Notes under the pieces: model-generated
Told to the model about the DNA's origin: nothing
The model's input: the letters and a program-made list of their open reading frames with translations, nothing else
Databases searched by the model: none
Shown: positions 6,622 to 44,447 of the stretch, piece after piece
How the letters are laid out: every line of letters starts with the position of its first letter
How positions within the stretch are numbered: position 1 is the first letter of the stretch
Program-made: the position numbers and the translations under genes
NCBI GenBank assembly: GCA_029262065.1
Contig: JAJDAC010000015.1
Location: forward strand, 1 to 64,000
DNA: 64,000 bases
Reading direction: 5' to 3'
From: Candidatus Krumholzibacteriota bacterium
Lineage (GTDB): Bacteria; Krumholzibacteriota; Krumholzibacteriia; JAJRXK01

Positions 6622-6655
6622 GGTCTCTCCTTGAATCGAGGACGCGACGAACGTC

Positions 6656-7303: not shown

Positions 7304-7522
7304 CGTTTCCTCGATCCAGGGGGTGAACGCAGTAATTCTACCAGAACTGTACACCCATGCCGGAATGGGCGCGAGCCACGATTCTCCCAAGCCAGCCCGC
7401 CAAAAACCCAAGAACAGGGGCTCCAACCGCCGGCATGGATGAGAGCAGTATGAGAACCGGGCATTGTTATTGGGTTAGACTTGAAGAGGGCAAAGCTACC
7501 GAATCCGGCGTGGAGTGGAATC

Positions 7523-8200
7523 ATGAGATTGTTGGTCGTGGAAGACTATGAGGCCGTTCGCAAATCCATCGCGAAGGGCCTTCGCGAATTGGGCGCCGAG
7601 GTTTCGGTGGCGAGCGACGGCCAGGGCGGGCTGGATCATCTGCGCTCTTCTTCGTTCGACGTGGTTATTCTCGATCTCATGCTGCCCGGCGTCGATGGAC
7701 TGACGGTACTGAAACAAGCACGCGAAGCCGGTGACGACACCATGGTCCTTATTCTCACCGCCCGCAATCGCGTGCAGGACCGGGTCGACGGGCTCGATGC
7801 AGGCGCGGACGACTACCTGGCCAAACCATTTGCGTTCGAGGAACTGGTGGCCAGGGTGCGAGCCCTGTATCGACGCAAACACCAGATACGTACGCCGGTC
7901 GTCACCGCCGGCCGACTCATGCTGGACCTGAACAGCGGCACGGTACAGTTCGACGATCAGCCGGTTCCACTCTCACCGCGCGAGTACTCACTGCTCGAGT
8001 GTCTCGCATTGCGGAAGAACCGCATCGTACCCCGCGAAGCCATCTGGATGGCTCTCTACGACCTGGAAGATGAGCCAAGCAGCAACGTAGTGGATGTCTA
8101 TGTGGGCTACCTGCGGAAGAAACTCGCCGCCTTCGAGGCAGATTCTCTCATCCAGACCAGGCGCGGCCAGGGCTACATCCTGGTGGATCCGCCGGCATGA
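7523..8200 (+). CDS. OmpR/PhoB-family response regulator
   Basis: The 225-residue product starts at the ATG following TGGAGTGGAATC. The receiver domain (1-115) has the acidic pair E7/D8, phosphoacceptor D51 (VVILDLMLPG), T79 and K101 (LAKPF). A winged-helix trans_reg_C DNA-binding domain follows, with PLSPREYSLLECLA and a VDVYVGYLRKKL recognition region ending TRRGQGYIL. It overlaps the downstream sensor kinase gene by four bases (ATGA), so the pair is a co-translated two-component system. The signal and targets are not evident; the only close upstream gene is the divergent peroxiredoxin selenoprotein. Confidence 0.9.
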   Translation: MRLLVVEDYEAVRKSIAKGLRELGAEVSVASDGQGGLDHLRSSSFDVVILDLMLPGVDGLTVLKQAREAGDDTMVLILTARNRVQDRVDGLDAGADDYLAKPFAFEELVARVRALYRRKHQIRTPVVTAGRLMLDLNSGTVQFDDQPVPLSPREYSLLECLALRKNRIVPREAIWMALYDLEDEPSSNVVDVYVGYLRKKLAAFEADSLIQTRRGQGYILVDPPA

Positions 8201-9600: not shown

Positions 9601-9644
9601 GCATCCATGGCATCGACAGGCATCGACGGGCGTCGAATGCCTAG
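9597..9644. terminator. Inverted repeat at convergent gene ends
   Basis: CTAGGCAT at 9597-9604 pairs with ATGCCTAG at 9637-9644, and the arms include the stop codons of the histidine kinase (plus) and the TonB receptor (minus). The interior carries a short CATCGAC direct repeat and a small CGAC/GTCG stem. It may be a shared terminator; no U-tract is seen. Confidence 0.4.
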
Positions 9645-28037: not shown

Positions 28038-30371
28038 CTATTTCGCCAGCGCAGCGAATTGTTCGGCGGATGCCGCGTCACCCCGAGCCTTATATAGGTC
28101 GGACAATGCGCCGGCTACGGTACGGCTGTGGAGATGCTTGGGGCCAAACCGTCCCGACAGCACGTCGTAGTTGCCCAGGAGCATGGGTTCGGCCTCGTCG
28201 TAGCGGCCTACCTCCACCAGCGTAATCCCGTAGCCGTATTCAGACAGCTGAATGCGTACATCGTCGGCGGGCAGAATCTTGCGAAGAACGCGTAAGCCCT
28301 CTTCGTGGTGGGGCAAGGCGTCCTGGGGCCTTCCCATGACCCGCAGTTGTTTGGCCAGGTTGTCCAGACAGTACGCGGTGGGCCAGAACTCATCGCCGTA
28401 GATCTGCCGGATCATGCCAAGAAGCATCTCGTATTTCTGCAGGGCCTGGTCATGGTCTCCTAGATCCTGGTCGATTCGTGCAAGCAGATCAAAGATGTGA
28501 CCGATCGAGGGGTGGTTCATTCCGTACTCGGCCTGAAGCTGAGCCAGGAGTCTTTCCATGGACGCCTTCGCCCGGGCCGGATCGCCTTCGACCACATCGA
28601 TGCGCGCGGTCTCGATTTCCAAGGACAACCGCTGGGTGTCGGCCGGCTCCAGCATTTCGCGCGCGTGCTCCAGGCACGGCAGGAGTTGCTCACGTGCTTC
28701 GACAAACTGCTCGCGCGCCCGGTAGACCGAACCCAGAAACAGACACGCGGTCATGAAGTCCTTCGAATCTGGATCCGAACGTTCCATGACCAGCTTGATG
28801 TCCTCGGCGATACGAGCTGCATCGTCCAGCTCGTATCCGTCGAGTTTCAATCGCCCCACGTTGTTCAGGTCACCCAACAAGCGAGGATCATCGGTGTCGA
28901 GCAACGACGATCTCGATAGCTCCAGGCCACGCGATGTGTGCATCATGGCTTTCGTCTGGTCACCAATCTCGCGGTAGGTACTGCCCATGGTGCGATGCGC
29001 GGCCGCGGCCACCTCGGGTTGATTCGCGAAGCGCTCATCGATGCTTTCGCTCGCGGCATCGAGGACATCCACCACGCGGACTTCCTTACCGCTGTTCCAC
29101 GGGTTGGGAGCCGAGATCATGTCCACCAGAAAGTCGACCAGAACGTTGGCCTTGTCCGCCTCTAGCCTGGCCCTCTGTCGCTCGCGCACGGCCGTGCTCC
29201 AACCCGCGGTGGACACGACCAGGCCCGCCACCAGAATGCCCAGGGCAATACAACCCACCGCCACCAGGCGACGGTTGCGCCGCGCGAATTTTCTGAACTG
29301 GTACACCGCACTGGAGGGACGCGCAGCAATTGGCTCGTCGTTCAGGAACCGACGTAGATCGTCAGCCAGTTCGCCGGCCGATCCGTACCGGCGATCACGA
29401 TCTTTCTCCAGACACTTTCCCACGATGGTCTCGAGATCGGCCGGATGGCGCGAGCCGACCGACGTCAGCGTCTTGGCGTCTTCATCGGTGATGATCCGGG
29501 CCGCTTCGGGCAACGAGCGACCCTTGAGTTCGTACGGAAGTTCGCCGGTCAGCAGCTCATAACACACCACGCCCAGCGCGTAGATGTCCGAGCTGGTGTC
29601 CAGATCGTCCTGCCGCCCCCCTACCTGCTCGGGACTCATGTAGGGAAGGGTGCCAATGACCTGCCCTATCTCGGTGTGCATGGTCGTGGCCTGTAGGTCG
29701 GAGTTGGTAATCCGAGCCACTCCGAAATCAACCACCTTGGGCTGCCCATCGGGCCGCACCAGGATGTTCGCCGGCTTCAGGTCACGATGGATCACGCCCT
29801 TCTGGTGAGCGTGATGCACGGCGTCGCACACCCGGCTCATCAGTTCCACCCGTTCGCGCGGCTTCAGCGCGTGGTGCGCGGCGTAGTCGGTGAGGGTCTC
29901 GCCGTCGATCAACTCCATGGCGAAGTACGGTTGCTCTCCACGACCGGTCTTGGTGGTGGCGGCATCGAAGATCTGCGCAATGCCGGGGTGATCGAGCCTA
30001 CCGAGTACCTCGGCCTCGAGCTTGAATCTCCGAAGCATGCTGTCGGAAATGATGTCACGGCGAATGAGCTTGAGAGCAACGTCCCGCCGTGGCTCGCTCT
30101 GCTCGGCTCGCAGCAGAATGCCCATTCCGCCTTCGGCGATGATGCTTTTCACCGTGTAGTGATCGATGGTCTTCCCCACCCACGTCACCGCGGGCGTGGC
30201 CAGAAAATCTCCCACCTGTTCGTCGGCCGCCAACAGTTCTTCGACATCTCTACGCAACGCGTCGTCACCCTTGCATGCTTGCTGCAAGTAGGCGCGGCGT
30301 TCAGATTCTGGTAGCTCTACGACCTTTTCGTAGAGATCCCTGAGTAGGGAGAAGCGATCGTTGGTATCCAT
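28038..30371 (-). CDS. Membrane Ser/Thr protein kinase with TPR sensor domain (lanthipeptide cluster, minus arm)
   Basis: The 777-residue product has a short N-terminal helical region (LYEKVVELPESERRAYL...ELLAADE), a Hanks kinase domain (~70-330) with EGGMGILLRAEQ, VALKLI, HRDLKPAN and DFG, all catalytic residues present, one transmembrane helix (~367-390; VAVGCIALGILVAGLVVSTAG), and a large TPR-rich C-terminal region. It is the last gene of the minus arm, 71 bp after the HlyD-like adaptor gene. It shares layout and N-terminal region with the plus-arm kinase, suggesting duplication. It may regulate cluster expression or export; substrates are unknown. Confidence 0.85.
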   Translation of the reverse strand: MDTNDRFSLLRDLYEKVVELPESERRAYLQQACKGDDALRRDVEELLAADEQVGDFLATPAVTWVGKTIDHYTVKSIIAEGGMGILLRAEQSEPRRDVALKLIRRDIISDSMLRRFKLEAEVLGRLDHPGIAQIFDAATTKTGRGEQPYFAMELIDGETLTDYAAHHALKPRERVELMSRVCDAVHHAHQKGVIHRDLKPANILVRPDGQPKVVDFGVARITNSDLQATTMHTEIGQVIGTLPYMSPEQVGGRQDDLDTSSDIYALGVVCYELLTGELPYELKGRSLPEAARIITDEDAKTLTSVGSRHPADLETIVGKCLEKDRDRRYGSAGELADDLRRFLNDEPIAARPSSAVYQFRKFARRNRRLVAVGCIALGILVAGLVVSTAGWSTAVRERQRARLEADKANVLVDFLVDMISAPNPWNSGKEVRVVDVLDAASESIDERFANQPEVAAAAHRTMGSTYREIGDQTKAMMHTSRGLELSRSSLLDTDDPRLLGDLNNVGRLKLDGYELDDAARIAEDIKLVMERSDPDSKDFMTACLFLGSVYRAREQFVEAREQLLPCLEHAREMLEPADTQRLSLEIETARIDVVEGDPARAKASMERLLAQLQAEYGMNHPSIGHIFDLLARIDQDLGDHDQALQKYEMLLGMIRQIYGDEFWPTAYCLDNLAKQLRVMGRPQDALPHHEEGLRVLRKILPADDVRIQLSEYGYGITLVEVGRYDEAEPMLLGNYDVLSGRFGPKHLHSRTVAGALSDLYKARGDAASAEQFAALAK

Positions 30372-30442: not shown

Positions 30443-31276
30443 CTAGCGGGGCCAAACGCGGACCACGGCACCGGTGGCGATCAGAAGGCCATCCAAGCCT
30501 TCCTGAGCTTGTTGGTCAAAGCGCGCTTCCGCGAACAACATGTCGGTTGCCGGATCGATCTCGGGCGAAACGCGCTCTACGACGGCTCCGATCGACTTCC
30601 CGCTCTCTTGGGCTCCGTCCAACCGTACGTCCAGGGTTGCCCCCGCGGTAAGCCAGGCCGAATCGCCAGCGGGCACGGCAAAACGAATGATAGGCGGCTC
30701 CAGACCAATGAGTCTGAGCAGACTTTCGCCGGCCTGGGCGTAGGAACCCTCCGTGCATTGCAGCAACGCCACTACGCCGTCGTAGGGAGCTTGGATGCTG
30801 GAAGCATCGAGGCGCTCGCGAAACAACGCCAACTCGGCCTGCCGCTCCTTCGTACTGGCGTTGGCCTGGTCCAGTTCGGCACGCTTGATACGGCGTTTCA
30901 GGTCGATCGCTTCCAGTTCTTCCGCCGAAAAAACCTCGTCGGCTTGTTTGCGACGTTCGAGCTGACGTTCTATGTCTTCCAGCTCGATTGCCGCCTGGGA
31001 TGCGATGGAACGTGCTCCCTGGACCGACGCCTGAGCCTGAGCTATCTGTCTTTCCAATCCGGGCACCGCGATTTCCATCAGCCCCTGTCCCGCGGCAACG
31101 GTGTCGCCCAACGCCACCGAGATCGAACGAACGGTTCCCGCCACCTCGGCCGCCATGTCGACGCTTTGGACGGGAATCACCACACCAAGATGGCCTACGG
31201 CTTCAGTAGACTCGGATTGCGCGCCCGTCGGCATGAGCGTTGCCAGTATCAACAATGTCAGAGCCAGAACTCGCAC
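30443..31276 (-). CDS. HlyD/MacA-like periplasmic adaptor (minus arm)
   Basis: The 277-residue product starts with a cleavable signal peptide (MRVLALTLLILATLMPTGA) rather than a retained membrane helix. The protein shows the adaptor layout: lipoyl half-motif (VAGTVRSISVALGDTVAAGQ), a long helical hairpin (~85-150; ELEDIERQLERRKQADEVF), the second lipoyl half (IQAPYDGVVALLQCTEGSY) and a beta-barrel tail. It starts 3 bp after the LanC stop. It differs from the plus-arm HlyD, which is membrane anchored, and no ABC ATPase lies next to it in this arm; it may help the C39 exporter reach the outer membrane. Confidence 0.8.
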   Translation of the reverse strand: MRVLALTLLILATLMPTGAQSESTEAVGHLGVVIPVQSVDMAAEVAGTVRSISVALGDTVAAGQGLMEIAVPGLERQIAQAQASVQGARSIASQAAIELEDIERQLERRKQADEVFSAEELEAIDLKRRIKRAELDQANASTKERQAELALFRERLDASSIQAPYDGVVALLQCTEGSYAQAGESLLRLIGLEPPIIRFAVPAGDSAWLTAGATLDVRLDGAQESGKSIGAVVERVSPEIDPATDMLFAEARFDQQAQEGLDGLLIATGAVVRVWPR

Positions 31277-31279
31277 GAT

Positions 31280-32575
31280 TCACCCTGCCTTCGGAACCGA
31301 AAGAAGCAACGGCCGATCCCACCCTGGGAAGTCGGTCACCAGGGCCGACGCCAACGCCAACCCTACGCCCCCGGCACCGGTCAAGTAGCCGGCATCCTCG
31401 ATGTATCCGTATTCCCACTCGCTCTCGGGCACGCGATCGGCGTTGGTCGCGCGCCATGTGGCGTAGCCGGCAATGCCTACATCATTGTGCCGCCGATCGA
31501 GGGTCAGTTGCAACCAATCGCGCGCCAGCGGCGCCAGCTCGGCATCGCCCGTCAGACGCCACAGACGATGCAATACATGGGCAACGCCAGCGTACCCGTG
31601 GCAAAGTCCGTGGTCGCGCACGCCCTGGTATTTTTCGTCGACGCTCACCGCCCGCTTGGCCAGGGAAACACCGTCGTCCAACCAGTCGGCCTGGTCGCAA
31701 CATGCGCCCGCCACGACCAGCGACGCAGCCACGCCCAGATCACCGTAGCACCAACCGAGCCGCGATCCCGATTCGTTGCGCTCCGCGTCCGTCAGCCAGC
31801 TGGAGTAACGCATGCCCGCGGAGTCCAACTTGCGTTGCCCCTGCAGCCACTGTACGGCGCCCCGAAGCAGCTCCTGGCCATTCGCGTCCAACGCGCCAAC
31901 ACGATGGGCTTGGGCCAACAACGAGACCACTCCCGGGACACCATGCGCGAGGCCCAGGTTGTAGTAGCCGCGGGGTGCGCCCTTCAATTGATGCGGTGGC
32001 AGGAGTGCGGGATCTGTCTTCCAAGTAATCCCATCTTTCGCCACTTCAGAGCCACGGTGCAAACGCGACACCACCCCGTGCAGGAGTTCCTGCGCCCGCG
32101 CGTGTGGCCATCGCTCGAGCGCATAGACTCCCAAGCCAACCCATCCCGAAATCAGATCGTAGTGGCGTGGTCCGTCCATGGTGAGACACTGCAATAGCGC
32201 GCTATCGATCTCGTCGTAGTCGAATTCTTCGTCGGGAAAGAACTCGCGTTCGAGGTGGGCGATACTCCAGGCGATACCGGCGAACCCGGGAAAAAGGCCG
32301 GTTCGGAGTCGATACTCCGAAAGACCCTGCACGGCATAGGCCATGTCGGCGCGCGCTGCATCGAACCAGTCCGCACGCTCCAGCATACGGGCCAGGTTGG
32401 CCAACACGATCGACGTGCCAATGCGACCGTCGGCCAACGACGGATCGGACGAGCGCGATCGAGAGGCTTCGGACAGCACTTCGCCCACCTGCTCGGCCGA
32501 CTGCCGCGCCAAGATGGCCCCGTCTCCGCCGAGCAGCGAGGTCGAGAGCTCGCCGGATAGATGATTCAATGTCAT
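31280..32575 (-). CDS. lanC: LanC-type lanthionine cyclase, all zinc ligands present
   Basis: The 431-residue LanC-fold protein has the repeated helical toroid glycine motifs and the full catalytic set: AHGVPG (H211), GWCYGD (C276) and LCHGYAG (C325, H326), matching the His base and the Cys/Cys/His zinc site of NisC. It should close thioether rings by adding Cys thiols to Dha/Dhb made by LanB. The start is taken at ATG 32575 (GTG 32581 also possible), placing it just after the upstream LanC-like stop; longer starts would overlap that gene by up to 220 bp. The cluster's exporter and HlyD genes support the assignment. Confidence 0.9.
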   Translation of the reverse strand: MTLNHLSGELSTSLLGGDGAILARQSAEQVGEVLSEASRSRSSDPSLADGRIGTSIVLANLARMLERADWFDAARADMAYAVQGLSEYRLRTGLFPGFAGIAWSIAHLEREFFPDEEFDYDEIDSALLQCLTMDGPRHYDLISGWVGLGVYALERWPHARAQELLHGVVSRLHRGSEVAKDGITWKTDPALLPPHQLKGAPRGYYNLGLAHGVPGVVSLLAQAHRVGALDANGQELLRGAVQWLQGQRKLDSAGMRYSSWLTDAERNESGSRLGWCYGDLGVAASLVVAGACCDQADWLDDGVSLAKRAVSVDEKYQGVRDHGLCHGYAGVAHVLHRLWRLTGDAELAPLARDWLQLTLDRRHNDVGIAGYATWRATNADRVPESEWEYGYIEDAGYLTGAGGVGLALASALVTDFPGWDRPLLLSVPKAG

Positions 32576-32583
32576 GCGCACGT

Positions 32584-33972
32584 TCAGTTCGACAGCAGAA
32601 ACAGACGATCCCAATCGGGCGGAACATCCGATACGAAGGCCAGCAACACCAGCGCGGTTCCCGCCGCCCCCACCAGCAAGCCAGGGTTGCCCGGGGCCGC
32701 CGATGGGTTGGCGGGGTTGGCCTGGTGCGCCGGATCGGTGGCCGCCAGGAAGCCGGCAATCCCGTGACCGGCCCGGCGCATCTCGAAACAGCGCGTCAAC
32801 CACCACCGCGCCCGCTCGGCCAGATCATTTCGTTCGGTACCCGGGTCCAGGCATTGGGCCATACGATTATACATGTGCGCCATCCCCGCCGCGCCATGAC
32901 ACAGCGCGTGGTTGGCAATTCCTTCGGTCGCACCACGGCCCCAAGGGATCCTGCAGGCTATATCTATAGACTGCCGACGCCACTCGAACTCCCCGGCGGC
33001 CTGGGCCGCCATCAACAGGCTCGAGGCCATGGCCAGGTCGCCGTAGACCCACCCAGGCGTGCTCGGCGCGTCGCCCGACAACAGTGTCGGGAACGCGAAC
33101 CGGCTGCCGTTCTGGGATCGGTGCGCAAGGACCCAATCAACGGCTCCACGAAGCAGGGGCCGCGTGCGTTCGTCGACTCCCACGGTCAGGCATCGGGCCA
33201 GGAACGCGATGATTCCCGCCATGCCATGGGTGTGCCCGAAATGCACGTACCCATGAGGATGATCGCGTCGCCAGTCACCGCATACCGCGGGGGGAGACTG
33301 GAGCCACGATACGCCGTTCTCGGTGAAGCTCGCGGTCTGGCTCAGAATATCGATCGTGGTACGCAAACACCGTCGTGCCCCCGGCTTGGGCCAACGCTCG
33401 AGCGCGTATACGCCACAACCCACCAGCCCGCGCGCCATTTCCAGGCCAATATTCGTGGCGACCGTGGGCAGATTGTTGGCGAGGGCCAGTTCGATTTCGC
33501 GATGCGAATCCTCCGCGCCATCCATGTCGAGAAACGCGTTCATGGCGCAAACGCCGGCAAACCCGTCGACGAGGCCAACGGGAAGAGAATCTGCCGATAG
33601 TTTGGCCAAGGCCGCGTCCTGGTAACGTCTGGCTTCGGCCGCATAGGGCTCGAGGTGGAGGGCTTGGGACAGATTCGAGAACAACAACGCGAGGCCCGCC
33701 GCCCCACCACCAAGCGTTGCATCGACAGACGACGGCGGATGGTCGCTTCGAATCGAACCCGCGATCTCCTGGACCGCTCTCAGAACGCGGTCCCGGGTGC
33801 CTTCGTCCAGAAGGGGGCTCCATTCTCGAAGCGATCGCGGTTGCACCGTCCAGCTCCTGGTTCTGGAGTGAAGCAGGGACAGCGCGGCGGCAAGAATGGC
33901 CGCCAGCGCCGTCCCAACGGAAACAAGGCCTAGCAGTTGGCGCTTGCCTCTTGGCACGGAAGGTCTGGGCAT
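32584..33972 (-). CDS. Membrane-anchored LanC-like protein lacking one zinc ligand
   Basis: The 462-residue product has an N-terminal transmembrane helix (~14-34; LLGLVSVGTALAAILAAA), unlike ordinary cytosolic LanC. The LanC toroid follows with GHTHGMAG (H247/H249 region) and ALCHGAAG (C358, H359), but the first zinc Cys is replaced: GWVYGD with V309 where the neighbouring LanC has GWCYGD. It may be a non-catalytic scaffold, an immunity factor or a cyclase with altered metal site. The ATG at 33972 overlaps the end of precursor gene A1 by 43 bp; GTG 33957 is the only later start before the membrane helix. Confidence 0.8.
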   Translation of the reverse strand: MPRPSVPRGKRQLLGLVSVGTALAAILAAALSLLHSRTRSWTVQPRSLREWSPLLDEGTRDRVLRAVQEIAGSIRSDHPPSSVDATLGGGAAGLALLFSNLSQALHLEPYAAEARRYQDAALAKLSADSLPVGLVDGFAGVCAMNAFLDMDGAEDSHREIELALANNLPTVATNIGLEMARGLVGCGVYALERWPKPGARRCLRTTIDILSQTASFTENGVSWLQSPPAVCGDWRRDHPHGYVHFGHTHGMAGIIAFLARCLTVGVDERTRPLLRGAVDWVLAHRSQNGSRFAFPTLLSGDAPSTPGWVYGDLAMASSLLMAAQAAGEFEWRRQSIDIACRIPWGRGATEGIANHALCHGAAGMAHMYNRMAQCLDPGTERNDLAERARWWLTRCFEMRRAGHGIAGFLAATDPAHQANPANPSAAPGNPGLLVGAAGTALVLLAFVSDVPPDWDRLFLLSN

Positions 33973-34112
33973 CGCGTGGGACCGAAATCCACATAGGTTT
34001 CACGCGGACACCGAGGGGCCGAGGTGTTACCACCGGAAACCTTGCCAAGATCTTCTTCGCTCAGATTGCGGATCGTCTCTTTGTTGAGTCGCAGCTGCTT
34101 CTTGTCCTTCAT
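33930..34112 (-). CDS. lanA: Lanthipeptide precursor A1
   Basis: The 60-residue precursor has a 28-residue leader (MKDKKQLRLNKETIRNLSEE to VSGG) and a 32-residue core. The leader has the LNKETI motif common to Bacteroidota-type class I precursors and ends in double Gly, the C39 peptidase site. The core has Cys at 7, 20, 25 and 32 and Ser/Thr at 2, 3, 11, 18 and 29, ending SANC, enough for up to four rings. TGGAGATGAAACG precedes the ATG. Its 3' end overlaps the LanC-like gene. The leader matches precursor A2 at 16 of 28 positions, so both are likely substrates of the one LanB. Confidence 0.85.
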   Translation of the reverse strand: MKDKKQLRLNKETIRNLSEEDLGKVSGGNTSAPRCPRETYVDFGPTRCPDLPCQEASANC

Positions 34113-34414
34113 CGTTTCATCTCCATTACAGGGGCTCTCTTGGGTTTTACGCGACCAAACACAGTCGCGTTCACCTGCTAATGCGCCGGCGGGAGACCCC
34201 CGCAGCTAAGGAAAAAACTCTTTGGCCTTTCCGGCTGGTTTTGGCGCATATGCTTGTGAGGAGGGGCTAGCCGTGCCTTCAGAGCCCCCGTTCTAGCCCT
34301 CCTGAGACACTATCCGGCCGAAAAGCCCACCGGAAAGCGGTTCAGAGGGCTGCGTCGGGGGGAACGGACGTCGTATACTTGACGAACACCATTTGCAGGA
34401 GCCCTCGTAGTTCG
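34113..34414. promoter_or_regulatory. Divergent control region between the two lanthipeptide arms
   Basis: This 302-bp spacer lies between precursor A1 (minus) and the ECF sigma gene (plus) and must hold both arm promoters. It contains an imperfect inverted repeat: AGGAGGGGCTAG at 34259-34270 against CTAGCCCTCCT at 34293-34303 (one bulged G), with a ~22-nt spacer, which could be an operator or attenuator. GGAAC at 34361-34365 resembles an ECF -35 element, but I cannot place a matching -10. Confidence 0.5.
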
Positions 34415-35020
34415 ATGCCCGAGAGTCTGACCCAGCTGCTTCACAAGGCCGCCAACGGTGATTCCCGTGCGGCCAACGACGTTCTACCGCTCGTGTACGA
34501 TGCCATGCGCCAACTTGCGCGGCGAAAAATGGCCAGCGAAGGCCCCGGCCACACGCTCCAGCCCACCGCTCTGGTACACGAGGCCTATCTGCGTCTGGTC
34601 CGGGACACCGACGCCAGCTGGAAGAACCGGCGACACTTCTTCGCGGCGGCATCCGAGGCGATGCGGCGCATCCTTATTGAACGCGCCCGGCGGGTTCACC
34701 GAATCAAGCACGGTGGGCACCTCCAGCGCGTGCCGCTGGATGAACAGGCGATCGAACAAGACATGCCAAGCGAACGCCTATTGGCGCTCGACGAAGCCCT
34801 CTCGCGCTTCGAGGTACTCTATCCCCGCAAAGCAAGCGTGGTGAAGCTACGCTACTTCGTGGGCATGTCGCAGGAAGAGACCGCGCAGACCCTCGAGGTT
34901 TCGCTGGCCACCGTGAAACTGGACTGGAGTTTCGCGCGAGCCTGGCTGGGCAAGGAAACAGCCCGCACTTCATCGGCAATAGCACCGCCGCTTCTCAGGG
35001 TCCGGCGAGGTAGCGCGTGA
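34415..35020 (+). CDS. ECF sigma factor of the kinase-linked (TIGR02999-like) type
   Basis: The 201-residue sigma factor has a region 2 (LVHEAYLRLV, RRHFFAAASEAMRRILIERARR) and region 4 (VVKLRYFVGMSQEETAQTLEVSLATVKLDW), the pattern of the TIGR02999 sigma group that typically sits next to Ser/Thr kinases. ATG 34415 is used. The stop overlaps the GTG of the kinase gene by four bases (GTGA). It heads the plus arm of the lanthipeptide cluster and probably directs its transcription when the kinase signals. Confidence 0.85.
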   Translation: MPESLTQLLHKAANGDSRAANDVLPLVYDAMRQLARRKMASEGPGHTLQPTALVHEAYLRLVRDTDASWKNRRHFFAAASEAMRRILIERARRVHRIKHGGHLQRVPLDEQAIEQDMPSERLLALDEALSRFEVLYPRKASVVKLRYFVGMSQEETAQTLEVSLATVKLDWSFARAWLGKETARTSSAIAPPLLRVRRGSA

Positions 35021-37794
35021 AGCATCAACCACTGCGCCAGGTGGAGCGGATCTTTCATCTCGTGGCCGGCCTCGACTCGTCCGAGCGTGTTCTGTTGCTC
35101 GATGAGCTTTGTGGCGACGACGACGAGTTGCGGGGCGAAGTGCTCACCCTACTGCAGGGCCACGACGCTGAGAACATCTTGGATGAACCCATCGAAGTCG
35201 ATGGGCTGGCGGCCGGGTCATCGAGTTCGTTGGCGGGAGATCTGCTGCGGCCGGGTACGTCCGTAGGACCCTACAGAATTCTGCGACCGCTGGGTCGCGG
35301 CGGCATGGGTGCGGTGTACCTGGCCGAGCAGATGCTGCCGGTGCACCGACAGGTTGCGCTCAAGCTCATCCACCATGGCCTGGCTTCGGATGAAGTACTA
35401 CGGCGCTTCGAAGCCGAGCGTCAGGCACTGGCTCTATTGGAGTGCCCCAATATCGCGCGCATTGTCGATGCAGGAACGACCAACGATGGGCGCCCCTACT
35501 TCACGATGGAACACGTCGACGGGGCGCCGATCACGCGCTACGCCGACGATCACCAGTTGGATGTACGGCAGCGGCTGCAGCTCTTTCTGCAGGTTTGCAA
35601 TGGAATCCGCCACGCCCATCAGCGCGGTATCGTCCACCGGGACATCAAACCCACCAACGTTCTCGTGACCGATATCGACGGTGAACCGGTAGTCAAGATC
35701 ATCGATTTCGGGGTCGCGCGAATCCTGCAGCCTACCCTGGCCAGTGGCGACCGAACCATGGCCGGCGTTGTCCTGGGAACACCCGAGTACATGAGCCCCG
35801 AGCAATCCGACAGCGGCGGGCGAGATGTAGACATTCGTTCGGACGTGTACTCGGCGGGCGTGTTGTTGTTTGAACTCCTGGTGGGCGACCTCCCGTTCTC
35901 ACGCGAAGAGCTTCTCGAAACCCAGGGGCCTCATCGCAAGACAACACCGGCCCCGAGCCAGCGCCTCACGGAGCTTCCCGACGGTGGCGTCACTGAGGCC
36001 AAGTACCGGCACGTCTCGGCCCACGATCTACGCCGCGCCCTGCGCGGCGAGCTGGATTGGATCTGCCTGCGCGCGCTCGAGTCCGATCGCGAGGAGCGGT
36101 ACCAGACCGTTGGAGCCCTCGCCGATGACATCGACCGGGCGTTGCGAAACGAAGCCGTATTGGCCGGACCGCCGAGCGCGGCCTACCGCGTTCGAAAGTT
36201 CGCCCGACGGCACCGCCTGCTGATCGCCGCTTCCTCGTTGGTTCTGACTGGCCTGATCGCGGCTACCGCGATCAGCGCAGCATTCTATCTGCGTGAGCAA
36301 ACGGCTCGATCGGAGGCCGAGAAGGCATTGGAATTGGCGGACGAAGGGCGTCGCCGGTCAGAGGCAGTGGCTGAGTTCAGTCGGAAGGTCCTGGCTGAGC
36401 TTTCGTCGCTCCGCAACACCGAGTCGGCCGAAGTCCTCGACCGTGCCCTTTTGGCCGCGATCGACCACGTCGAAAATGACGGAGAACTCGACCCCCGCGA
36501 CCGTGCCCTCGTGCGAGTAACCCTGGGGCATCTGTGCCTGCAGAACGGTGACATCGGTGCGGCCGGGCGACTCTACAAGCTGGCCGAGGCGGGATTCGCG
36601 GAACAGGTTGACGCGAATGCCTACGACTACGCCGAGTGCCTCATGGATATTGCCGGGTACAAGCTGCACCACGAGCACGAGGAACAACAGGCCAAGGAGT
36701 ACACCGCCCGAGCCCGTGAAATCGTAGGTCGAGGCTTCGCGATCAACACGTTCGAGCACGTCGCGATCGAAGTAATGGCGGGCGATCTGCTCATGCAAAC
36801 CGACGACAAGCAAGGCGCATTGGACGCATTGCGCAAAGTGCGCATGAGCTTTCGTTCCGTTGAGGTTCTTGAATCCAATCGAGCCAACCTTGCGCAGTGG
36901 AGAATAACAGGCCTTACGCATCTCTTTCGCAGCCTCATGGATATGGGGGAGCTCGAAGAGGCGAACGAAGTTCTGACCGAGGCTAAACGGGTTGCCAAAG
37001 AGAACGAACTGAATGACGAAGTCACGCGGTTGAACTTCCACAAGAGCCAGGCAACCTTGAGTCGCAAGCTGGACCGTTGGGAAGCGGCGGCGGCCGCCTA
37101 CGATTCCACGCATGCCATCTATCTCGACATTTTTGGTGAATTCTCCGCCACAACAACGTTCTACGCCGGTCGTCACGCCGACGCACTTGCCCGCTGCGGT
37201 CGTTTCGATGAGGCCCAATCCATCTTCGATGCCACCATCAAGACCTGCGAAAATGACACGAACCTGGCAAAAATCGCGCTCTACCGGATCGTGCTTTTCC
37301 GCGGGGACATGCTGAGACTCCGCGGGAACCTCGATGCCGCCGCCCAGGACTACACACGGGCCGATGCAGGTTTCAAGACTATATACTTCAAAGGCAACGA
37401 GGACGGGCCCGCGCGCGTGGATCACCGTCGCGGGCTGCTCAACTTCGCATGGAACAACCTGGAGCAGGCCGAGCACCATTTTGAGCGCGCTCACGAAGTG
37501 ATGTCCCGACGCAAGGGACCAAAAGCCCTGGAAGCGCTCGAGAGCGCGCACTGGTTGGCTCGCGTACGCGTGAAACGCGGTGACTTCGCAACCGCGGAGC
37601 CGCTGGCACTGTCGACGCATGAACTTCGGGCCTCCGCCCTCGGTCCCGAAGCACCAGCAACTCTTGAATCCGTCGCCCTGATCGAAGAGATGTACGAGCA
37701 ATGGTCAAGACCGGATGCCCTTGGCGCCTGGAAAACCCAGCGCGACAATTCGGTCGCGGCCGTGGCAAGTCGTTCTGCAACCAACAACCCGTAG
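35017..37794 (+). CDS. Membrane Ser/Thr protein kinase with TPR domain (lanthipeptide cluster, plus arm)
   Basis: The 925-residue product has an N-terminal helical region (~1-80), a Hanks kinase domain (~86-360) with GRGGMGAVYLAE, K116, HRD (207-209, HRDIKPTN) and DFG (230-232), one transmembrane helix (~402-426; LLIASS...), and a ~480-residue TPR-like C-terminus outside the membrane. The GTG start overlaps the sigma stop (GTGA). The gene is followed 9 bp later by precursor A2. This sigma-kinase pairing suggests phosphorylation control of the sigma factor, a mode proposed for planctomycete and acidobacterial homologues. Confidence 0.85.
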   Translation: MKHQPLRQVERIFHLVAGLDSSERVLLLDELCGDDDELRGEVLTLLQGHDAENILDEPIEVDGLAAGSSSSLAGDLLRPGTSVGPYRILRPLGRGGMGAVYLAEQMLPVHRQVALKLIHHGLASDEVLRRFEAERQALALLECPNIARIVDAGTTNDGRPYFTMEHVDGAPITRYADDHQLDVRQRLQLFLQVCNGIRHAHQRGIVHRDIKPTNVLVTDIDGEPVVKIIDFGVARILQPTLASGDRTMAGVVLGTPEYMSPEQSDSGGRDVDIRSDVYSAGVLLFELLVGDLPFSREELLETQGPHRKTTPAPSQRLTELPDGGVTEAKYRHVSAHDLRRALRGELDWICLRALESDREERYQTVGALADDIDRALRNEAVLAGPPSAAYRVRKFARRHRLLIAASSLVLTGLIAATAISAAFYLREQTARSEAEKALELADEGRRRSEAVAEFSRKVLAELSSLRNTESAEVLDRALLAAIDHVENDGELDPRDRALVRVTLGHLCLQNGDIGAAGRLYKLAEAGFAEQVDANAYDYAECLMDIAGYKLHHEHEEQQAKEYTARAREIVGRGFAINTFEHVAIEVMAGDLLMQTDDKQGALDALRKVRMSFRSVEVLESNRANLAQWRITGLTHLFRSLMDMGELEEANEVLTEAKRVAKENELNDEVTRLNFHKSQATLSRKLDRWEAAAAAYDSTHAIYLDIFGEFSATTTFYAGRHADALARCGRFDEAQSIFDATIKTCENDTNLAKIALYRIVLFRGDMLRLRGNLDAAAQDYTRADAGFKTIYFKGNEDGPARVDHRRGLLNFAWNNLEQAEHHFERAHEVMSRRKGPKALEALESAHWLARVRVKRGDFATAEPLALSTHELRASALGPEAPATLESVALIEEMYEQWSRPDALGAWKTQRDNSVAAVASRSATNNP

Positions 37795-37803
37795 GAGATG
37801 ACA

Positions 37804-38016
37804 ATGACAGACAGGAAGAAACTCAAGCTGAACAAGGACACCCTGAGAGACCTCACATCGGAGGATCTGCAGAGAGTGTTGGGAGGGACCGAGGGTCAAC
37901 CAGCTCCGACCAACAGAAACCCATGTGCCCACCCAGGCGAGGATCCAAGCGATGGGACGTGCACTGCAGTTCCCACGGATCAACCGTGCGTTGAAAACCC
38001 TTCGACCAACTGCTAG
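37804..38016 (+). CDS. lanA: Lanthipeptide precursor A2
   Basis: The 70-residue precursor starts at the second of two ATGs: GGAG lies 6 nt upstream of 37804 but abuts the ATG at 37798, and this start also gives a 28-residue leader, the same length as in A1. The leader carries LKLNKDTLRDL and SEDLQRVLGG. The 42-residue core has Cys at 13, 25, 34 and 42 and eight Ser/Thr (1, 8, 21, 24, 26, 30, 39, 40), ending STNC like the SANC of A1. Many Pro residues may limit ring patterns. It lies between the kinase and the exporter genes. Confidence 0.85.
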   Translation: MTDRKKLKLNKDTLRDLTSEDLQRVLGGTEGQPAPTNRNPCAHPGEDPSDGTCTAVPTDQPCVENPSTNC

Positions 38017-38029
38017 GTCCAAGGTCACC

Positions 38030-39028
38030 ATGAGGCCATCCACGGAAACGACATCCCCGCGCGATCGCGAGGCGCCCGACGGCACGCCGCTGGGCAGCGC
38101 GCTGTTCCGCGATCGCGCGCGGCGGGCGGCGGAAACGCCCCGTCACGAAGGCGACCTGCTGCGCCTGTCGCCCAGTTGGGCGCGTAGCGTGTACTGGGTA
38201 CTTTTGGGAATGTCGCTCCTGCTTATCGTGGGTGGTCTGGTGGGCCGATCTCGTGAATTCGCATCGGGACCCGCCGTGTTGCGCGTTGGCAACGGCCTCC
38301 GCCTCACGGCCCTTGCGGCGGGGACCGTCGAACGCCTCGATGTAATAGCGGGTGAACACGTTGTGGCTGGCCAATCCCTGGTGCAATTCCACTCCGAGGA
38401 TGAACGCAACGTTCTGTCACACCTGCAAACCGAATTCGACCTGCACCTGGTACATCTGCTGCGTGAACCAGGTGACAAGATGGCCCGGAATACATTGGCC
38501 GGCCTGCGCGCTCAACGAAAGCTCGCCGAGGCACGCCTCGCCGAGCGTACGCTGGTCGCGCCCACCGAAGGCTGGGTCCAGGACGTCCGCATCCGACCCG
38601 GACAGCGGTTGGCGGCGGGCGAGACCGTAGTGAGCTTGGTGGCGCGACAAGAACAGCACACTCTGATGGCTTTCCTACCCGGCGAGTTTCGTCCGCTGCT
38701 CAAGGTTGGCCAACCATTGAACCTGATTCCCGTGGGCTATCCGCACTCTCGAATTCGCATGTCAGTCGAAAGCGTGCAGGAGGAAGTGGTGACCGCGCAG
38801 GCGGCCCTCGCGCCCCTGGGCGTTGAATGGCAGAACGCGATTCAACTACAAGGCTCGGTAACCGTCGTAACCGCCACCCTGCCGGCCACGACGTTTCAAG
38901 CGGACGGGCAAGAGCGGCCGTTGTACAGCGGAATGCAGGGCAAAGTCGAAGTGTGCGTGCGCGAACAGGCGATTCTCCTGACCCTCATTCCGGGACTCGA
39001 ATCGTTGGTGGAGAGGTTCCGAAACTAG
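38030..39028 (+). CDS. HlyD-family membrane fusion protein (plus arm)
   Basis: The 332-residue product, read from ATG 38030, 13 bp after precursor A2. It has a short cytosolic tail, one transmembrane helix (~54-72; VYWVLLGMSLLLIVGGLVG), lipoyl halves (LAAGTVERLDVIAGEHVVAG and LVAPTEGWVQDVRIRPGQRL), a short hairpin, and a beta-barrel with a LIPVGYPHSRI segment. The end is joined to the exporter start (TAGATG). It should bridge the C39 ABC transporter to an outer-membrane channel for peptide export; no TolC gene is in the window. Confidence 0.85.
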   Translation: MRPSTETTSPRDREAPDGTPLGSALFRDRARRAAETPRHEGDLLRLSPSWARSVYWVLLGMSLLLIVGGLVGRSREFASGPAVLRVGNGLRLTALAAGTVERLDVIAGEHVVAGQSLVQFHSEDERNVLSHLQTEFDLHLVHLLREPGDKMARNTLAGLRAQRKLAEARLAERTLVAPTEGWVQDVRIRPGQRLAAGETVVSLVARQEQHTLMAFLPGEFRPLLKVGQPLNLIPVGYPHSRIRMSVESVQEEVVTAQAALAPLGVEWQNAIQLQGSVTVVTATLPATTFQADGQERPLYSGMQGKVEVCVREQAILLTLIPGLESLVERFRN

Positions 39029-41272
39029 ATGCGCGCGGAAAGAGCACAACCACCCCCTTCTGACGGGCAAGGCCTCAAGGATCGCTTTCCGGCTCTGCGC
39101 CGACTCGAGCGCCACCGACCCCGTCGCGTTCCCGTGGTCGAACAGAATCACGTGGCCGATTGCGGCCCCGCCTGCCTTGCCGCGGTATTGCGATACTTCG
39201 GCAGCCAGGTACGACTGCCCGATGTCCGAGATCAGTTTGGCGCTGGACGCGACGGCGTAACCGCGCAGTCATTGCTCGACGTGGCCAAGCGGCACGGTTT
39301 GCTGGGCCGCGCGGTTCGTATGGAACTGGAAGATCTGAAGCTGCTACCGCAAGGCACCATTTTGCACTGGGAAATGAGTCACTTCGTGGTTCTCGATCGC
39401 GTCCGGCGCGACGGCATAGACATCATGGATCCCGCCCGTGGACGCCGGCACGTAGGGGCCAAGGAACTCGACGACGCCTTTACCGGAATTGCTCTGCTGT
39501 TCGAGACCACGCAGCGGTTCGCTCCCGTCAAAGGTGATCGCTCGCGCGTGCTGCAATACGTGAAAGAACTGCTGCTTCATTCGGGGCTCATCGGCCGAAT
39601 CATGATCACGTCGCTACTCATCCAGGTGTTCGCGCTTGGGTTGCCCGTTCTGACCGGGCTCATCGTCGACCGCGTGGTCCCTCATGGTGACACCGACCTA
39701 CTGCGCGTGGCCATAGGCGGCGTGGCCATGATCACCGTCTTCAGCCTTCTATCGAACCTACTGCGGTCGTACCTGCTCATACAGCTCCAAACCAATCTCG
39801 ACATGCGCCTGACCCTGAACTTCGTCGATCACATGATGCGGCTCCCGTTCGAGTTCTTCCAGCTGCGCCAAACGGGCGATCTGCTGATGCGACTGAACAG
39901 CAACACGACCATCCGCGAGATGCTGACTTCCACGGCGGTTACCGCCCTGCTCGACGGCGGACTGGTGTTCACCTACGTGGTGGTGCTCATGCTGGTGCAT
40001 CCGGCGCTGGGGTCTGTGGTGCTGGGCCTGGGTTTCCTACGCGTGGCGGTCTACGTTGCGACTCGCCACCGGTATCGCGATCTCACTACCGAATTGCTTC
40101 AGGCTCAGGCCGCTTCGTCGGACTACCAGGTCCAGATGCTCGAGGGCATCGAGACCATCAAGAGCACGGGGGCCGAGGGCCGCGCCGTGCAGCACTGGTC
40201 CAACCTGTTCGTGGATGTCATGAACATCTTGCTCGATCGGGGACGGCTGAACGCCGTCGTCCAGTCGACCATGGGTGCCCTTTCCGTTGCATCGCCCCTG
40301 GTTCTCCTGGGCTACGGCGCACACCTGGTACTGACCGATCAACTCAGCCTGGGTACCATGCTGGCCATGAACGCTTTGGCCGCCGGCTTTCTCACTCCGT
40401 TGTCGTCGCTAGTACAGACGGGTCTGAAACTCCAGACTCTGGGAAGCTACGTGGACCGCGTGGATGACGTACTCTCGAAGGAACCCGAACGCGGCGCCCA
40501 GGGAGCGCGTACCGCACCCGACCTGCTGGGAACCATCGAACTGAAAAACCTGTCGTTTCGTTATTCAGACGCAGGACCGTGGGCGGTGGACGACGTGTCG
40601 GTGGAAATACCATCGGGTTCTCGCGTGGCCGTGGTCGGGCGCAGCGGCTCAGGCAAGTCCTCGCTGGCGCGGTTGCTGGTAGCCCTGTATCAACCGGAAC
40701 AAGGAGCGATCCTCTACGACGGCCTGGACCTGCGCGACCGCGACGTGGATACGATCCGGCGTCAGATCGGCTTCGTTCCCCAGTTTCCGTTCCTGTTCGG
40801 CGCATCGATTCGAGACAACATCTCGCTTACCGACCCCGACGCACCGTTGGAAACCATCGAACGCGCCGCGCAAATGGCTTGTATCCACGATGAGATCGTC
40901 CAGATGCCGCTGCACTACGAAACGCCGGTCGCCTCGGGTGGCGCGTCGCTGGCTGGCGGGCAGTGCCAGCGCATCGCCATGGCTCGAGCTCTGCTTCGAC
41001 GTCCGCCGATTCTGGTGCTCGACGAAGCCACCAGCAATCTGGACGCGATCGCCGAACGGAAGATCCACGAGAACCTCAGCAGTATCCAATGTACCCAGGT
41101 CATCATTGCCCATCGCTTGAGCACCGTGGTCGACGCCGATCTCATACTGGTAATGGACCACGGGAAGGTTATAGAACGCGGCACCCACGACGAACTCCTG
41201 GCCCGTCGTGGCTCCTACGCCAACCTGTTCGAGAACCAGATGAAGGGGGTTCGCGATCGGTCGGCCGAATGA
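39029..41272 (+). CDS. lanT: C39-peptidase-containing ABC exporter (PCAT)
   Basis: The 747-residue transporter has three parts. An N-terminal C39 cysteine peptidase (~35-150) shows Q39, C45 (NHVADCGPACL), H118 (SHFVVLD) and D134 (MDPARG). A six-helix ABC_membrane region follows (~185-465). The nucleotide-binding domain (~515-735) has Walker A GRSGSGKSS, signature LAGGQCQR, Walker B ILVLDEAT and the H-loop IIAHRL. It should cut both precursors after the double Gly and export the modified core. It starts immediately after the HlyD stop. Confidence 0.9.
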   Translation: MRAERAQPPPSDGQGLKDRFPALRRLERHRPRRVPVVEQNHVADCGPACLAAVLRYFGSQVRLPDVRDQFGAGRDGVTAQSLLDVAKRHGLLGRAVRMELEDLKLLPQGTILHWEMSHFVVLDRVRRDGIDIMDPARGRRHVGAKELDDAFTGIALLFETTQRFAPVKGDRSRVLQYVKELLLHSGLIGRIMITSLLIQVFALGLPVLTGLIVDRVVPHGDTDLLRVAIGGVAMITVFSLLSNLLRSYLLIQLQTNLDMRLTLNFVDHMMRLPFEFFQLRQTGDLLMRLNSNTTIREMLTSTAVTALLDGGLVFTYVVVLMLVHPALGSVVLGLGFLRVAVYVATRHRYRDLTTELLQAQAASSDYQVQMLEGIETIKSTGAEGRAVQHWSNLFVDVMNILLDRGRLNAVVQSTMGALSVASPLVLLGYGAHLVLTDQLSLGTMLAMNALAAGFLTPLSSLVQTGLKLQTLGSYVDRVDDVLSKEPERGAQGARTAPDLLGTIELKNLSFRYSDAGPWAVDDVSVEIPSGSRVAVVGRSGSGKSSLARLLVALYQPEQGAILYDGLDLRDRDVDTIRRQIGFVPQFPFLFGASIRDNISLTDPDAPLETIERAAQMACIHDEIVQMPLHYETPVASGGASLAGGQCQRIAMARALLRRPPILVLDEATSNLDAIAERKIHENLSSIQCTQVIIAHRLSTVVDADLILVMDHGKVIERGTHDELLARRGSYANLFENQMKGVRDRSAE

Positions 41273-41294: not shown

Positions 41295-44200
41295 GTGGTA
41301 CGCACCCCCCTACTGCCGGCGAACGCGTTTCTCGAAGAGATGGCACCGGCAGGAACGTACGAGGCCCGGCGCGAGGTTGCGGTGCGGCGCATGCGCGAGC
41401 TGGTGGCGCGCCCTGACGTACGCGACGCACTGTACGTAGCCTCACCCGGACTGTTGAATCGACTGGACGCGTGGCTACAGAAGCCTGAACCGGGAACCGT
41501 GGACCTGGCCGTTACGCGGTACCTGGAGCGCATGTCCCTACGTTGTACGCCCTTCGGTCTGTTCGCCGGGGTCAGTGTGGCAGCGGTCGGACTCGACACC
41601 GCGCTCCGTTTGGGACCGGCAACCGAGTACGTTCGCCACACTCGACTGGATACTGGTTACCTGACCGAGTTTATCGAGCGCATCGCCGCGGACCCCGCGG
41701 TGCGCGCCGAGTTGTTGTTCCAACCCAACTCGAGCCTGTACCGAGCCGGGCGACGCCTCCACTACTTCGAGGCACGCCAGGGACCCAAGGGGCGCGGCTA
41801 CTTCCTGGTGGCCGTTGACGAAGACGAAACCCTGCGCGAGATGCTCGACCAGGCGCGCGACGGGGTACGGCTGGGCTTGCTGGTCGATGCGCTCGTGTCC
41901 GACGAGATCTCCACGGAAGACGCCGAAGCCTACGTCGACGAGCTCGTAGAAGCACAGCTACTCGTACCCCAGTTGGGTCCCACGGTAACCGGCTCTCATG
42001 CACTGAACGATGTGATCGATCAGTTGAAGGCAGTCCCCGCCACCGCCGACGTAAGCCGGGAACTCAAGAGCATTGTCCATGCACTGGCCCGCCTCGATAC
42101 CGCCGGAGTGGGCGTTGCAACCGACCAGTCTCTGGCCATCCAGGCGCGCTTGAAGGAACTCCAGCCCAAGGCCGACCCCGGGCGCCTGCTGCAGGTAGAC
42201 CTGACGAAGCCAAGTAGGAAGCTTCAGTTGGACGAAGCTGTCATCGACGACATCCAACGGTCCTTCGGCGTGCTTCACGACCTGTTTGCCGCACAAGTTA
42301 CCGATCGCCTGGACTCGTTTCGGCGGCAATTCCAGAGTCGATACGGCGACGCCGAACTGCCGTTGGTGGAAGTTCTCGACGAAGAAGTCGGTATTGGTTT
42401 TCGCGCGGCCCAGGGGCCGGTGGGCGAAGCAGCCCCGTTGCTGGCTGGGTTGCACTTGGCCGCTCCAACGGCCGACCCGAGCGTTTCCCGCAACGCTGTG
42501 GACCGCTTCCTCATGCGAAAACTCTGCGAAGCACTGAACTCGGGAGCCGTGGAGATCGAGGTTACCGACGCAGAGGTCGCCTCCGTCCGCGATCAACAGA
42601 CGGGCAAGCGTCTGCCACTACCCGATGCCTACGGCGTCATGGCCTGTGTGTGGACCTCTGTCGATGGCCACGAAGTAGCCATTCAAGGCGGCGGCGGACC
42701 CTCGGGGGCACGACTCCTGGCAAGGTTCTGCCCGCTCGACGCCCAACTGGACCAACACGTCAAAGAACATCTAAGGGCCGAGGAGGCTCTTCAACCCGCC
42801 AAACGATTCTTCGAGATCGTGCACCTGCCCGAGGGGCGAATGGGCAACGTCTTGGGCCGCACGGTGCTGCGCGACTACGAACTGACCTTTCTGGGCCGTT
42901 CTGGAGTCGAACCGGAACGCCAGTTGAACATCAACGACCTGCTGATCTCCATGCGGGACGACCGGATCGTGCTGCGATCGCGACGCCTGAACTGCGAGGT
43001 CGAACCCCGGCTAAGCTCGGCCCACAACGCGGCTCACCGATCTACGGGCGTGTATCGTTTTCTGGTGGAACTACAACAACAGGGCGTGATAACCGGCCTA
43101 CGTTGGAGCTGGGGCACTCTGGACGAGGCGCCCATGCTACCCCGGGTCCGTTACGGACGAACGGTTCTATCGCCCCAGCGCTGGAACATCCGGCTGGAGG
43201 AACTGGACTCGTTTCGCAACCACGACCCCGAGCCGTTCTACGAGGCCTTTCGTGGTTGGGCCAGCAAGCGCGGCCTACCTCGGCATTTCACACTGGTTGA
43301 ATCCGATCGCATGCTGCCCATCGACGTCGAAAATCCTCTCTCGGTCGAGGCCTTCTGGGACCTGGCTTGCAAGCGATCGACGTTCACGCTGGAAGAGTGC
43401 GTGCCGCCCCTGGATCGATGCGCGGCCACTGGGCCCGAGGGTCCGTTCGTGCACGAGCTGGTCGTACCGTTCGTGCGACGGACACCGTTGACTTCAGCAG
43501 CCAAGGGACGTCCGGTGGAGACCTCGAATGCGCGACGCCCGATCGGCAGTGATTGGCTGTACGCCAAGATCTTCTGCGGCAAAGCTGCGGCCGACCGCGT
43601 GCTGACTGATCATGTCGCCCCGCTGCAACGCGCCCTGACCGCACGGGGATTGACCGATCGCTGGTTCTTCATTCGATACGCAGACCCCCAGCCTCACCTT
43701 CGGTTGCGCATGCACGGCAACCCCGAGTCACTGACTCGCGAGGCATATCCCCTTCTGGTGGAAGCGCTATCGTCGCTACAAGCCGACAGAACCGTATGGC
43801 TGTTCCAACTCGATGCCTACGACCAGGAACTCGTGCGCTACGGCGGCGAGCAAGCGATGCCCCTTTGCGAGGAGATCTTCGCCGCCGATAGCGAAGCGGT
43901 TATCGAATGTCTGCGGCTGCTTCGTGGCGACGAGCATGCCGACACCCGTTGGAAAACCACGCTGCGCGGCATGGACGCGTTGCTGGAAGACTTCGGGCTG
44001 GACCCGCTGCTCAAGTATGCGCTGGCTGACCGGCTCAGCGCGGGCTTTCGCCGTGAATTCCTGCACGAACGCCTCGTGAAGAAGCAGGTCTCGAAACGAT
44101 TTCGGCAAGAGCGCGCTCAGGTGGAGTCGGCGTTGTCCAACAACGGCAGCATTCCTCAGGATATCGAGCGTAGCCTGCCACTGTTCGAGCAGCGTTCACG

Positions 44201-44447
44201 ACGCATCCAACCCGCGGTAGCCGCTCTCAAAGACCTGGAAGCAAGGGGCGTCTTGATCACACCCATGCCGGACATCGCCGCCAGCATGCTACACATGCAC
44301 GCCAACCGCATGCTCCGAGCCGCGGCCCGCGCGCAGGAAATGGTGCTGTACTCGATGCTCGCCGAACACCACGACTCGCAACTGGCCCGGCGCGGCATCA
44401 AAGGGAAAGAGCGGGAGCGTCAACTGAAGGCCCTGGATCAGTCCTAG
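41295..44447 (+). CDS. lanB: Full-length class I lanthipeptide dehydratase LanB
   Basis: The 1050-residue product joins an N-terminal Lant_dehydr_N glutamylation domain (~1-680; VRTPLLPANAF, RYLERMSLRCTPFGLFAGV) to a C-terminal SpaB_C elimination domain (~750-1040; GSDWLYAKIFCGKAAADR, DRWFFIRYADPQPHLRLRM). It is the complete NisB-type enzyme that dehydrates core Ser/Thr using glutamyl-tRNA. GTG 41295 is used because two upstream ATGs are out of frame. The gap after the exporter stop is 22 bp and a terminator follows. Both precursors probably share this one dehydratase. Confidence 0.92.
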   Translation: MVRTPLLPANAFLEEMAPAGTYEARREVAVRRMRELVARPDVRDALYVASPGLLNRLDAWLQKPEPGTVDLAVTRYLERMSLRCTPFGLFAGVSVAAVGLDTALRLGPATEYVRHTRLDTGYLTEFIERIAADPAVRAELLFQPNSSLYRAGRRLHYFEARQGPKGRGYFLVAVDEDETLREMLDQARDGVRLGLLVDALVSDEISTEDAEAYVDELVEAQLLVPQLGPTVTGSHALNDVIDQLKAVPATADVSRELKSIVHALARLDTAGVGVATDQSLAIQARLKELQPKADPGRLLQVDLTKPSRKLQLDEAVIDDIQRSFGVLHDLFAAQVTDRLDSFRRQFQSRYGDAELPLVEVLDEEVGIGFRAAQGPVGEAAPLLAGLHLAAPTADPSVSRNAVDRFLMRKLCEALNSGAVEIEVTDAEVASVRDQQTGKRLPLPDAYGVMACVWTSVDGHEVAIQGGGGPSGARLLARFCPLDAQLDQHVKEHLRAEEALQPAKRFFEIVHLPEGRMGNVLGRTVLRDYELTFLGRSGVEPERQLNINDLLISMRDDRIVLRSRRLNCEVEPRLSSAHNAAHRSTGVYRFLVELQQQGVITGLRWSWGTLDEAPMLPRVRYGRTVLSPQRWNIRLEELDSFRNHDPEPFYEAFRGWASKRGLPRHFTLVESDRMLPIDVENPLSVEAFWDLACKRSTFTLEECVPPLDRCAATGPEGPFVHELVVPFVRRTPLTSAAKGRPVETSNARRPIGSDWLYAKIFCGKAAADRVLTDHVAPLQRALTARGLTDRWFFIRYADPQPHLRLRMHGNPESLTREAYPLLVEALSSLQADRTVWLFQLDAYDQELVRYGGEQAMPLCEEIFAADSEAVIECLRLLRGDEHADTRWKTTLRGMDALLEDFGLDPLLKYALADRLSAGFRREFLHERLVKKQVSKRFRQERAQVESALSNNGSIPQDIERSLPLFEQRSRRIQPAVAALKDLEARGVLITPMPDIAASMLHMHANRMLRAAARAQEMVLYSMLAEHHDSQLARRGIKGKERERQLKALDQS

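Follow-up and report, generated by a model that had tools for sequence, protein, structure and literature searches.

The window analysed here, a 64,000-nucleotide stretch of DNA from a Candidatus Krumholzibacteriota bacterium (contig JAJDAC010000015.1), raises the question of why a lanthipeptide cluster should encode, beside an intact LanC cyclase, a second protein of the LanC fold in which a zinc ligand has been replaced. A sequence-only reading of the locus had proposed a membrane-anchored pseudo-cyclase that could hold the modified peptide at the exporter, serve in immunity, or work in a heterocomplex with the intact LanC. The open reading frame on which that proposal was based (32584-33972) does exist. 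Its strand, which was not given, is the minus strand (33972 to 32584, 462 codons from the ATG), and the plus-strand translation of the same interval is not this gene. The encoded protein matches Pfam LANC_like (PF05147) at 89.3 bits against a cut-off of 23.2, over profile positions 2-350 of 350, and the neighbouring gene product, with GWCYGD and CHG motifs, scores 125.7 bits. Thus, the observation that a second LanC-fold protein lies directly upstream of an intact LanC holds. Both genes belong to a complete class I lanthipeptide cluster comprising two precursors, two LanC genes, LanB, a C39-ABC exporter, and two HlyD proteins:

28038-30371, minus strand: Ser/Thr protein kinase with TPR repeats (Pfam)
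30443-31276, minus strand: HlyD/RND-type periplasmic adaptor, the next gene after the intact LanC (Pfam HlyD_3, TIGR01730)
31280-32575, minus strand: intact LanC, with D141, H212, C284, C330, and H331 present; start 8 bp past the stop of the deficient copy
32584-33846, minus strand: zinc-site-deficient LanC-like gene, probable true coding sequence of 420 aa from GTG 33846, with AGGAG at 33854-33858; based on the Pfam match, the Shine-Dalgarno sequence, the start position of homologues, and the AlphaFold (AF2) model
33930-34112, minus strand: class I lanthipeptide precursor 1, 60 aa, first gene of the operon with both LanCs (NF038153 lant_leader_L1a, 28.3 bits, cut-off 22)
34379-35020, plus strand: ECF sigma factor, divergent from the precursor-LanC operon (Pfam Sigma70_ECF, 196.6 bits)
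35017-37794, plus strand: second Ser/Thr protein kinase with TPR repeats (Pfam)
37798-38016, plus strand: class I lanthipeptide precursor 2, 72 aa, from ATG 37798 or 37804 (NF038153, 23.2 bits, cut-off 22)
37925-39028, plus strand: HlyD-type adaptor, whose true start probably lies past precursor 2 (Pfam HlyD_3)
39029-41272, plus strand: C39-peptidase-containing ABC exporter (Pfam Peptidase_C39, ABC_membrane, ABC_tran)
41295-44447, plus strand: full-length LanB dehydratase, N and C domains (Pfam Lant_dehydr_N, 506.6 bits; Lant_dehydr_C, 219.7 bits)

The two TPR kinases and the ECF sigma factor that flank the lanthipeptide operons may be regulators. Elsewhere in the same genome there is a second class I cluster (contig C31, 58000-77000) with LanB, HlyD, C39-ABC, and one intact LanC, which adjoins a precursor-like ORF. 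On contig C6 (34000-51736), at about 6538-10261 of that segment on the plus strand and downstream of a subtilase, an APH-type kinase (PF01636), a HopA1-type protein (PF17914, 80.3 bits), and a LanC-like protein (PF05147, with WCHG and CHG motifs) follow in succession. This split kinase/lyase/cyclase arrangement resembles class V lanthipeptide machinery, but the cyclase is of the LanC type.

The product of the zinc-site-deficient gene is referred to below as the deficient LanC. Like a class I LanC, it is co-encoded with LanB and a precursor. Modeled from the GTG start, it has the alpha/alpha toroid of the LanC fold (pLDDT 93), and its best matches in the PDB are MadC (8byk, Z 39.3) and NisC (2g02, Z 36.4), with class III domains lower (Z 24-29). 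The predicted model thus shares its fold with NisC and MadC over 367-390 aligned residues (Z 36-39), and the gene context of LanB, exporter, and precursor is shared as well. It differs from them in having Val284, Thr280, and Glu141, in its 17-18% sequence identity, and in adjoining a second, intact LanC.

The active-site lesion

In LanC proteins, the zinc activates the Cys thiol, while His212, together with Asp141, carries out the acid-base steps (PMC9934072, PMC9889658, PMC10604976). Catalytic positions were assigned from an alignment of about 80 relatives together with NisC. Among the LanC sequences scored, 76 have all five catalytic or zinc residues (D-H-C-C-H) intact; the corresponding residues of the deficient LanC are E-H-V-C-H. 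The zinc motif GWCYGD has become GWVYGD, as follows:

33046-33048, minus strand: codon GTC, Val at the zinc-ligand position of NisC Cys284 (alignment)

The earlier statement that Val stands at the first zinc ligand while the CHG ligands are kept is therefore accurate; the three ligands Cys284, Cys330, and His331 of NisC are V, C, and H here. Since GTC is two base changes away from any Cys codon, a single-base sequencing error does not explain the Val. Two further active-site changes had been missed, Asp141 to Glu and Arg280 to Thr; His212 is kept. Glu at position 141 is also seen in five LanCs whose zinc site is intact (L079, L081, L104, L110, and L113), so this change alone is no sign of inactivity, and from these sequences it seems to be tolerated in LanCs. 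The other conserved positions that have been lost are the Ala before His212, now Thr, the Asp four residues before Cys330, now Asn, and two small residues.

The distribution of these losses is informative. Conservation in at least 90% of intact LanCs defines 31 columns, of which the deficient LanC has lost seven: 5 of 10 active-site columns and 2 of 21 others (Fisher p 0.022, with active-site columns assigned by motif and literature rather than by distances in the model, a division of our own). The losses are thus concentrated in the active site, which indicates that the catalytic center has been relaxed whereas the fold has not. The idea of a pseudo-cyclase is consequently backed by a lesion in the active site of a protein that has kept its fold, and the protein is probably inactive as a cyclase.

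A competing view, which we consider unlikely, is that the deficient LanC is a specialized cyclase that still works, perhaps for one precursor or one ring. In this case, some other group would complete a zinc site with Cys330 and His331, or the reaction would be metal-independent, as in class III LanKC. Such activity is consistent with the retention of Trp283 and Tyr285 as well as His212, Cys330, and His331, and with the presence of two precursors and two LanCs in the cluster. Class III LanKC proteins (ThurKC, PneKC, SalKC) likewise have a LanC-like toroid without the canonical zinc ligands, and ThurKC closes rings with Ser726, Phe770, and Asp771 in place of all three (PMC10604976). However, LanKC domains are fused to a kinase and a lyase and have lost all three ligands family-wide, whereas the deficient LanC is only a free-standing LanC domain, lies in a LanB cluster, and has lost one. 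Furthermore, Cys284 is invariant among the zinc-site-intact LanCs of the alignment and is called vital, with reference to nisin and subtilin work, in PMC3091789; Arg280 and the residue preceding His212 are changed in addition; and the three other broken copies described below have lost different, often more, residues.

Broken LanCs beside intact ones, and the question of decay

LanC is rare in the phylum of the window (6 of 80 genomes). A scan of genome contigs with the deficient LanC as a single query revealed no relative, but an alignment-based scan of about 85,000 species genomes did, yielding 79 LanC loci; a scan of viral contigs with the LanC alignment found nothing. In addition, the LanC family and two of the broken copies served as queries against 145 Myxococcales genomes, and the broken copy of the deltaproteobacterial locus L061 served as query against 289 genomes of the class that contains this locus. 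Five clusters with two LanCs were found, and in four of them one copy is broken. In Archangium lansinium (L055), a broken GHGWF copy lies in tandem with a DHCCH copy, and the two are sisters (99% SH-aLRT). In a Myxococcales genome (G196, locus L131), a broken GHERR copy lies about 4 kb from a LanC-LanB pair whose LanC is EHCCH. In a deltaproteobacterium (L061/L133), a broken GRCCH copy is divergent from a DHCCH copy, and the contig of L061 includes just part of LanB. These three resemble the window in that an incomplete catalytic site is found in the same cluster as a zinc-intact LanC and LanB; they differ from it in that their lesions are not EHVCH and often involve more residues. In the fifth cluster (L067, 6670-9153), both LanC genes are intact and divergent, about 90 bp apart.

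Other loci are of a different kind. As far as could be seen, broken copies stand alone in L077/L010 (GHCCE), in whose genome there is no LanB match, and in L040 (GRCCH), which has no LanB on its 7-kb contig. The orphan GHCCE gene (L077, 7728-9149), from the same class as the window, adjoins sigma-factor-like and anti-sigma-like ORFs. In L131 (5513-10727), a NodU-type carbamoyltransferase and two ORFs with no Pfam match come after the GHERR LanC, convergent with the LanB-LanC pair; this is possibly the cluster of a carbamoylated lanthipeptide. The deltaproteobacterial genome of L079 (G149) has ten LanC-family genes, none of which is adjacent to another.

Two LanC genes within one class I cluster were reported in 2010 for Frankia EAN1pec (Franean1_1333 and Franean1_1336; PMC3091789). 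In the literature covered, where subscription journals are thinly represented and silence is accordingly weak evidence, there is no description of free-standing LanC paralogues with a broken active site beside an intact LanC. Two-LanC clusters and zinc-free class III domains were known, and what appears to be new is the recurrence of free-standing, active-site-broken LanCs beside an intact one.

The broken copies might be thought to belong to a single ancient subfamily. A clade of the window, L055, and L061 copies is rejected (p-AU 0.00059), and the losses in these three are therefore independent. The origin of the deficient LanC itself has been approached with a quick tree, in which its terminal branch and that of its intact neighbor are similar in length (1.22 and 1.08, respectively). 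Although the first tree parted the two copies, the AU test found a sister arrangement at least as good (p-AU 0.64), and a foreign origin is not claimed. Since the sister relation is not rejected, it is possible, judging from these sequences, that local duplication gave rise to both LanCs.

The deficient LanC could be a decaying duplicate or a relic with no present function, an account to which we assign the same low probability as to a working cyclase. Its lesion is unique. None of the other genomes searched yielded an orthologue that carries it; close relatives are without it, and searches for orthologues of the broken copies of L055 and L131 (145 Myxococcales genomes) and of L061 (289 genomes) were likewise negative. 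A possible common origin with the neighboring LanC would fit this account, as would the independent losses at different residues elsewhere, which look like repeated decay. However, the deficient LanC is only about 30% identical to its neighbor, and its 420 codons contain no stop. When unselected substitution was simulated (substitutions only), the frame stayed open in about 2% of the runs when 25% of residues had changed, and in 0 of 200 when 40% had. Because the divergence lies far beyond the survival of an unselected frame, these results argue that the frame has been maintained for most of its history; they say nothing of the present, and the loss of Cys284 could be late. Decay is also hard to reconcile with the conservation of structural columns, the confident predicted fold, and the intact position in the operon.

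The start codon and the hydrophobic stretch

The N-terminal transmembrane helix of the earlier proposal depends on the start at ATG 33972, which adds the following segment:

33847-33972, minus strand: 5' extension of the longest ORF, hydrophobic between 33868 and 33936; shares sequence with the precursor gene and probably does not belong to the translated protein

Read from this ATG, the long ORF has 42 codons ahead of GTG 33846, which begin within the gene for precursor 1 and then cross the gap behind it. If this start were used, the protein would be a pseudo-cyclase with a membrane anchor, tethering the peptide at the exporter. Residues 13-35 are indeed strongly hydrophobic (Kyte-Doolittle 19-mer 2.33), as occurs by chance in 0.05-0.75% of comparable stretches, and the frame is open throughout the 83-bp gap between the stop of precursor 1 (33930) and GTG 33846, in which the hydrophobic stretch falls. 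However, ATG 33972 lies within the core-peptide codons of precursor 1 and has no Shine-Dalgarno sequence, whereas GTG 33846 has AGGAG 7 nt upstream, a motif that recurs at several other starts in the window. GTG 33846 is also where relatives begin, a few residues ahead of a W-x-P-L-L motif: L010 has a GTG with GGAG at the identical offset of 8 residues from the motif, and L024 and L031 have an ATG at 7. Among about 80 relatives, there is no convincing case of an N-terminal helix. The codon usage of the extension is neither coding-like nor noncoding-like. Because several Corallococcus LanC frames also have hydrophobic stretches upstream of a plausible start, there is precedent for an anchor that is an artefact.

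Taken together, these sequence features suggest that the stretch lies outside the coding sequence, and the N-terminal membrane helix is probably an artefact of annotation. As the helix most likely precedes the true start, tethering to the membrane is not supported, and an anchored pseudo-cyclase is quite improbable. It had been proposed that relatives with Cys at this position and no helix would speak for a recent mutation or a mis-set start. Relatives do have the Cys and no helix, and the start was probably mis-set, but the copy is too far from its intact neighbor for the change to be called recent. A role in immunity or self-protection, by binding of the mature lanthipeptide, is very improbable: the gene adjoins a precursor gene, and a LanC pocket might bind modified peptide, but we know of no immunity protein with the LanC fold, no LanI- or LanFEG-like feature or other support was found in the sequence, and a protein with neither signal nor anchor would be cytosolic, whereas the secreted lanthipeptide acts outside.

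A possible non-catalytic partner in maturation and export

The explanation that we prefer, and to which we give about an even chance, is that the deficient LanC is a non-catalytic partner in a maturation-export complex of LanB, LanC, and the exporter. In this model, a soluble LanC-fold paralogue would have lost zinc-activated ring closure through the changes of Cys284 to Val, Arg280 to Thr, and Asp141 to Glu, while keeping the fold and the rest of the pocket. Made from one operon with precursor 1 and the intact LanC, it would replace or pair with LanC in the LanB-LanC-exporter complex and hold the (dehydrated) precursor, and this holding would set the timing or order of ring closure or the hand-over to the exporter. 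Such a helper role is suggested by the fact that at least four clusters contain a broken copy alongside a working one. In contrast, two of the three zinc ligands, His212, and Tyr285 are kept, which is more than a pure scaffold needs, and with no orthologues across species the recurrence could be repeated decay of duplicates. Of the roles first suggested, the heterocomplex with the intact LanC is supported as a possibility by the 8-bp spacing in one operon, the retained fold, and the recurrence.

There is precedent for LanC as a structural part. A NisB2-NisC1-NisA1 complex forms, for which the substrate is needed (PMC5294574), and at the membrane both NisC and NisB are bound by NisT (PMC8546558). 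A structural role for LanC, separate from catalysis, is disputed in the nisin system, where two reports disagree: in one, catalytically dead NisC H331A was reported not to restore secretion, contrary to an earlier report cited and discussed in the same paper (PMC7378552). Such a role could be examined with native parts in clusters where a broken and an intact LanC occur together naturally.

More generally, and tentatively, two-component cyclases may have arisen repeatedly in the class I lanthipeptide clusters of Gram-negative bacteria, each made up of an active LanC and a catalytically dead paralogue that pairs with it and governs precursor binding, ring order, or export; we hold this broader hypothesis to be somewhat less probable than the partner role in the window itself. 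Should the broken copy prove necessary, an active-site check would have to be added wherever lanthipeptide genome mining takes every PF05147 gene for a cyclase.
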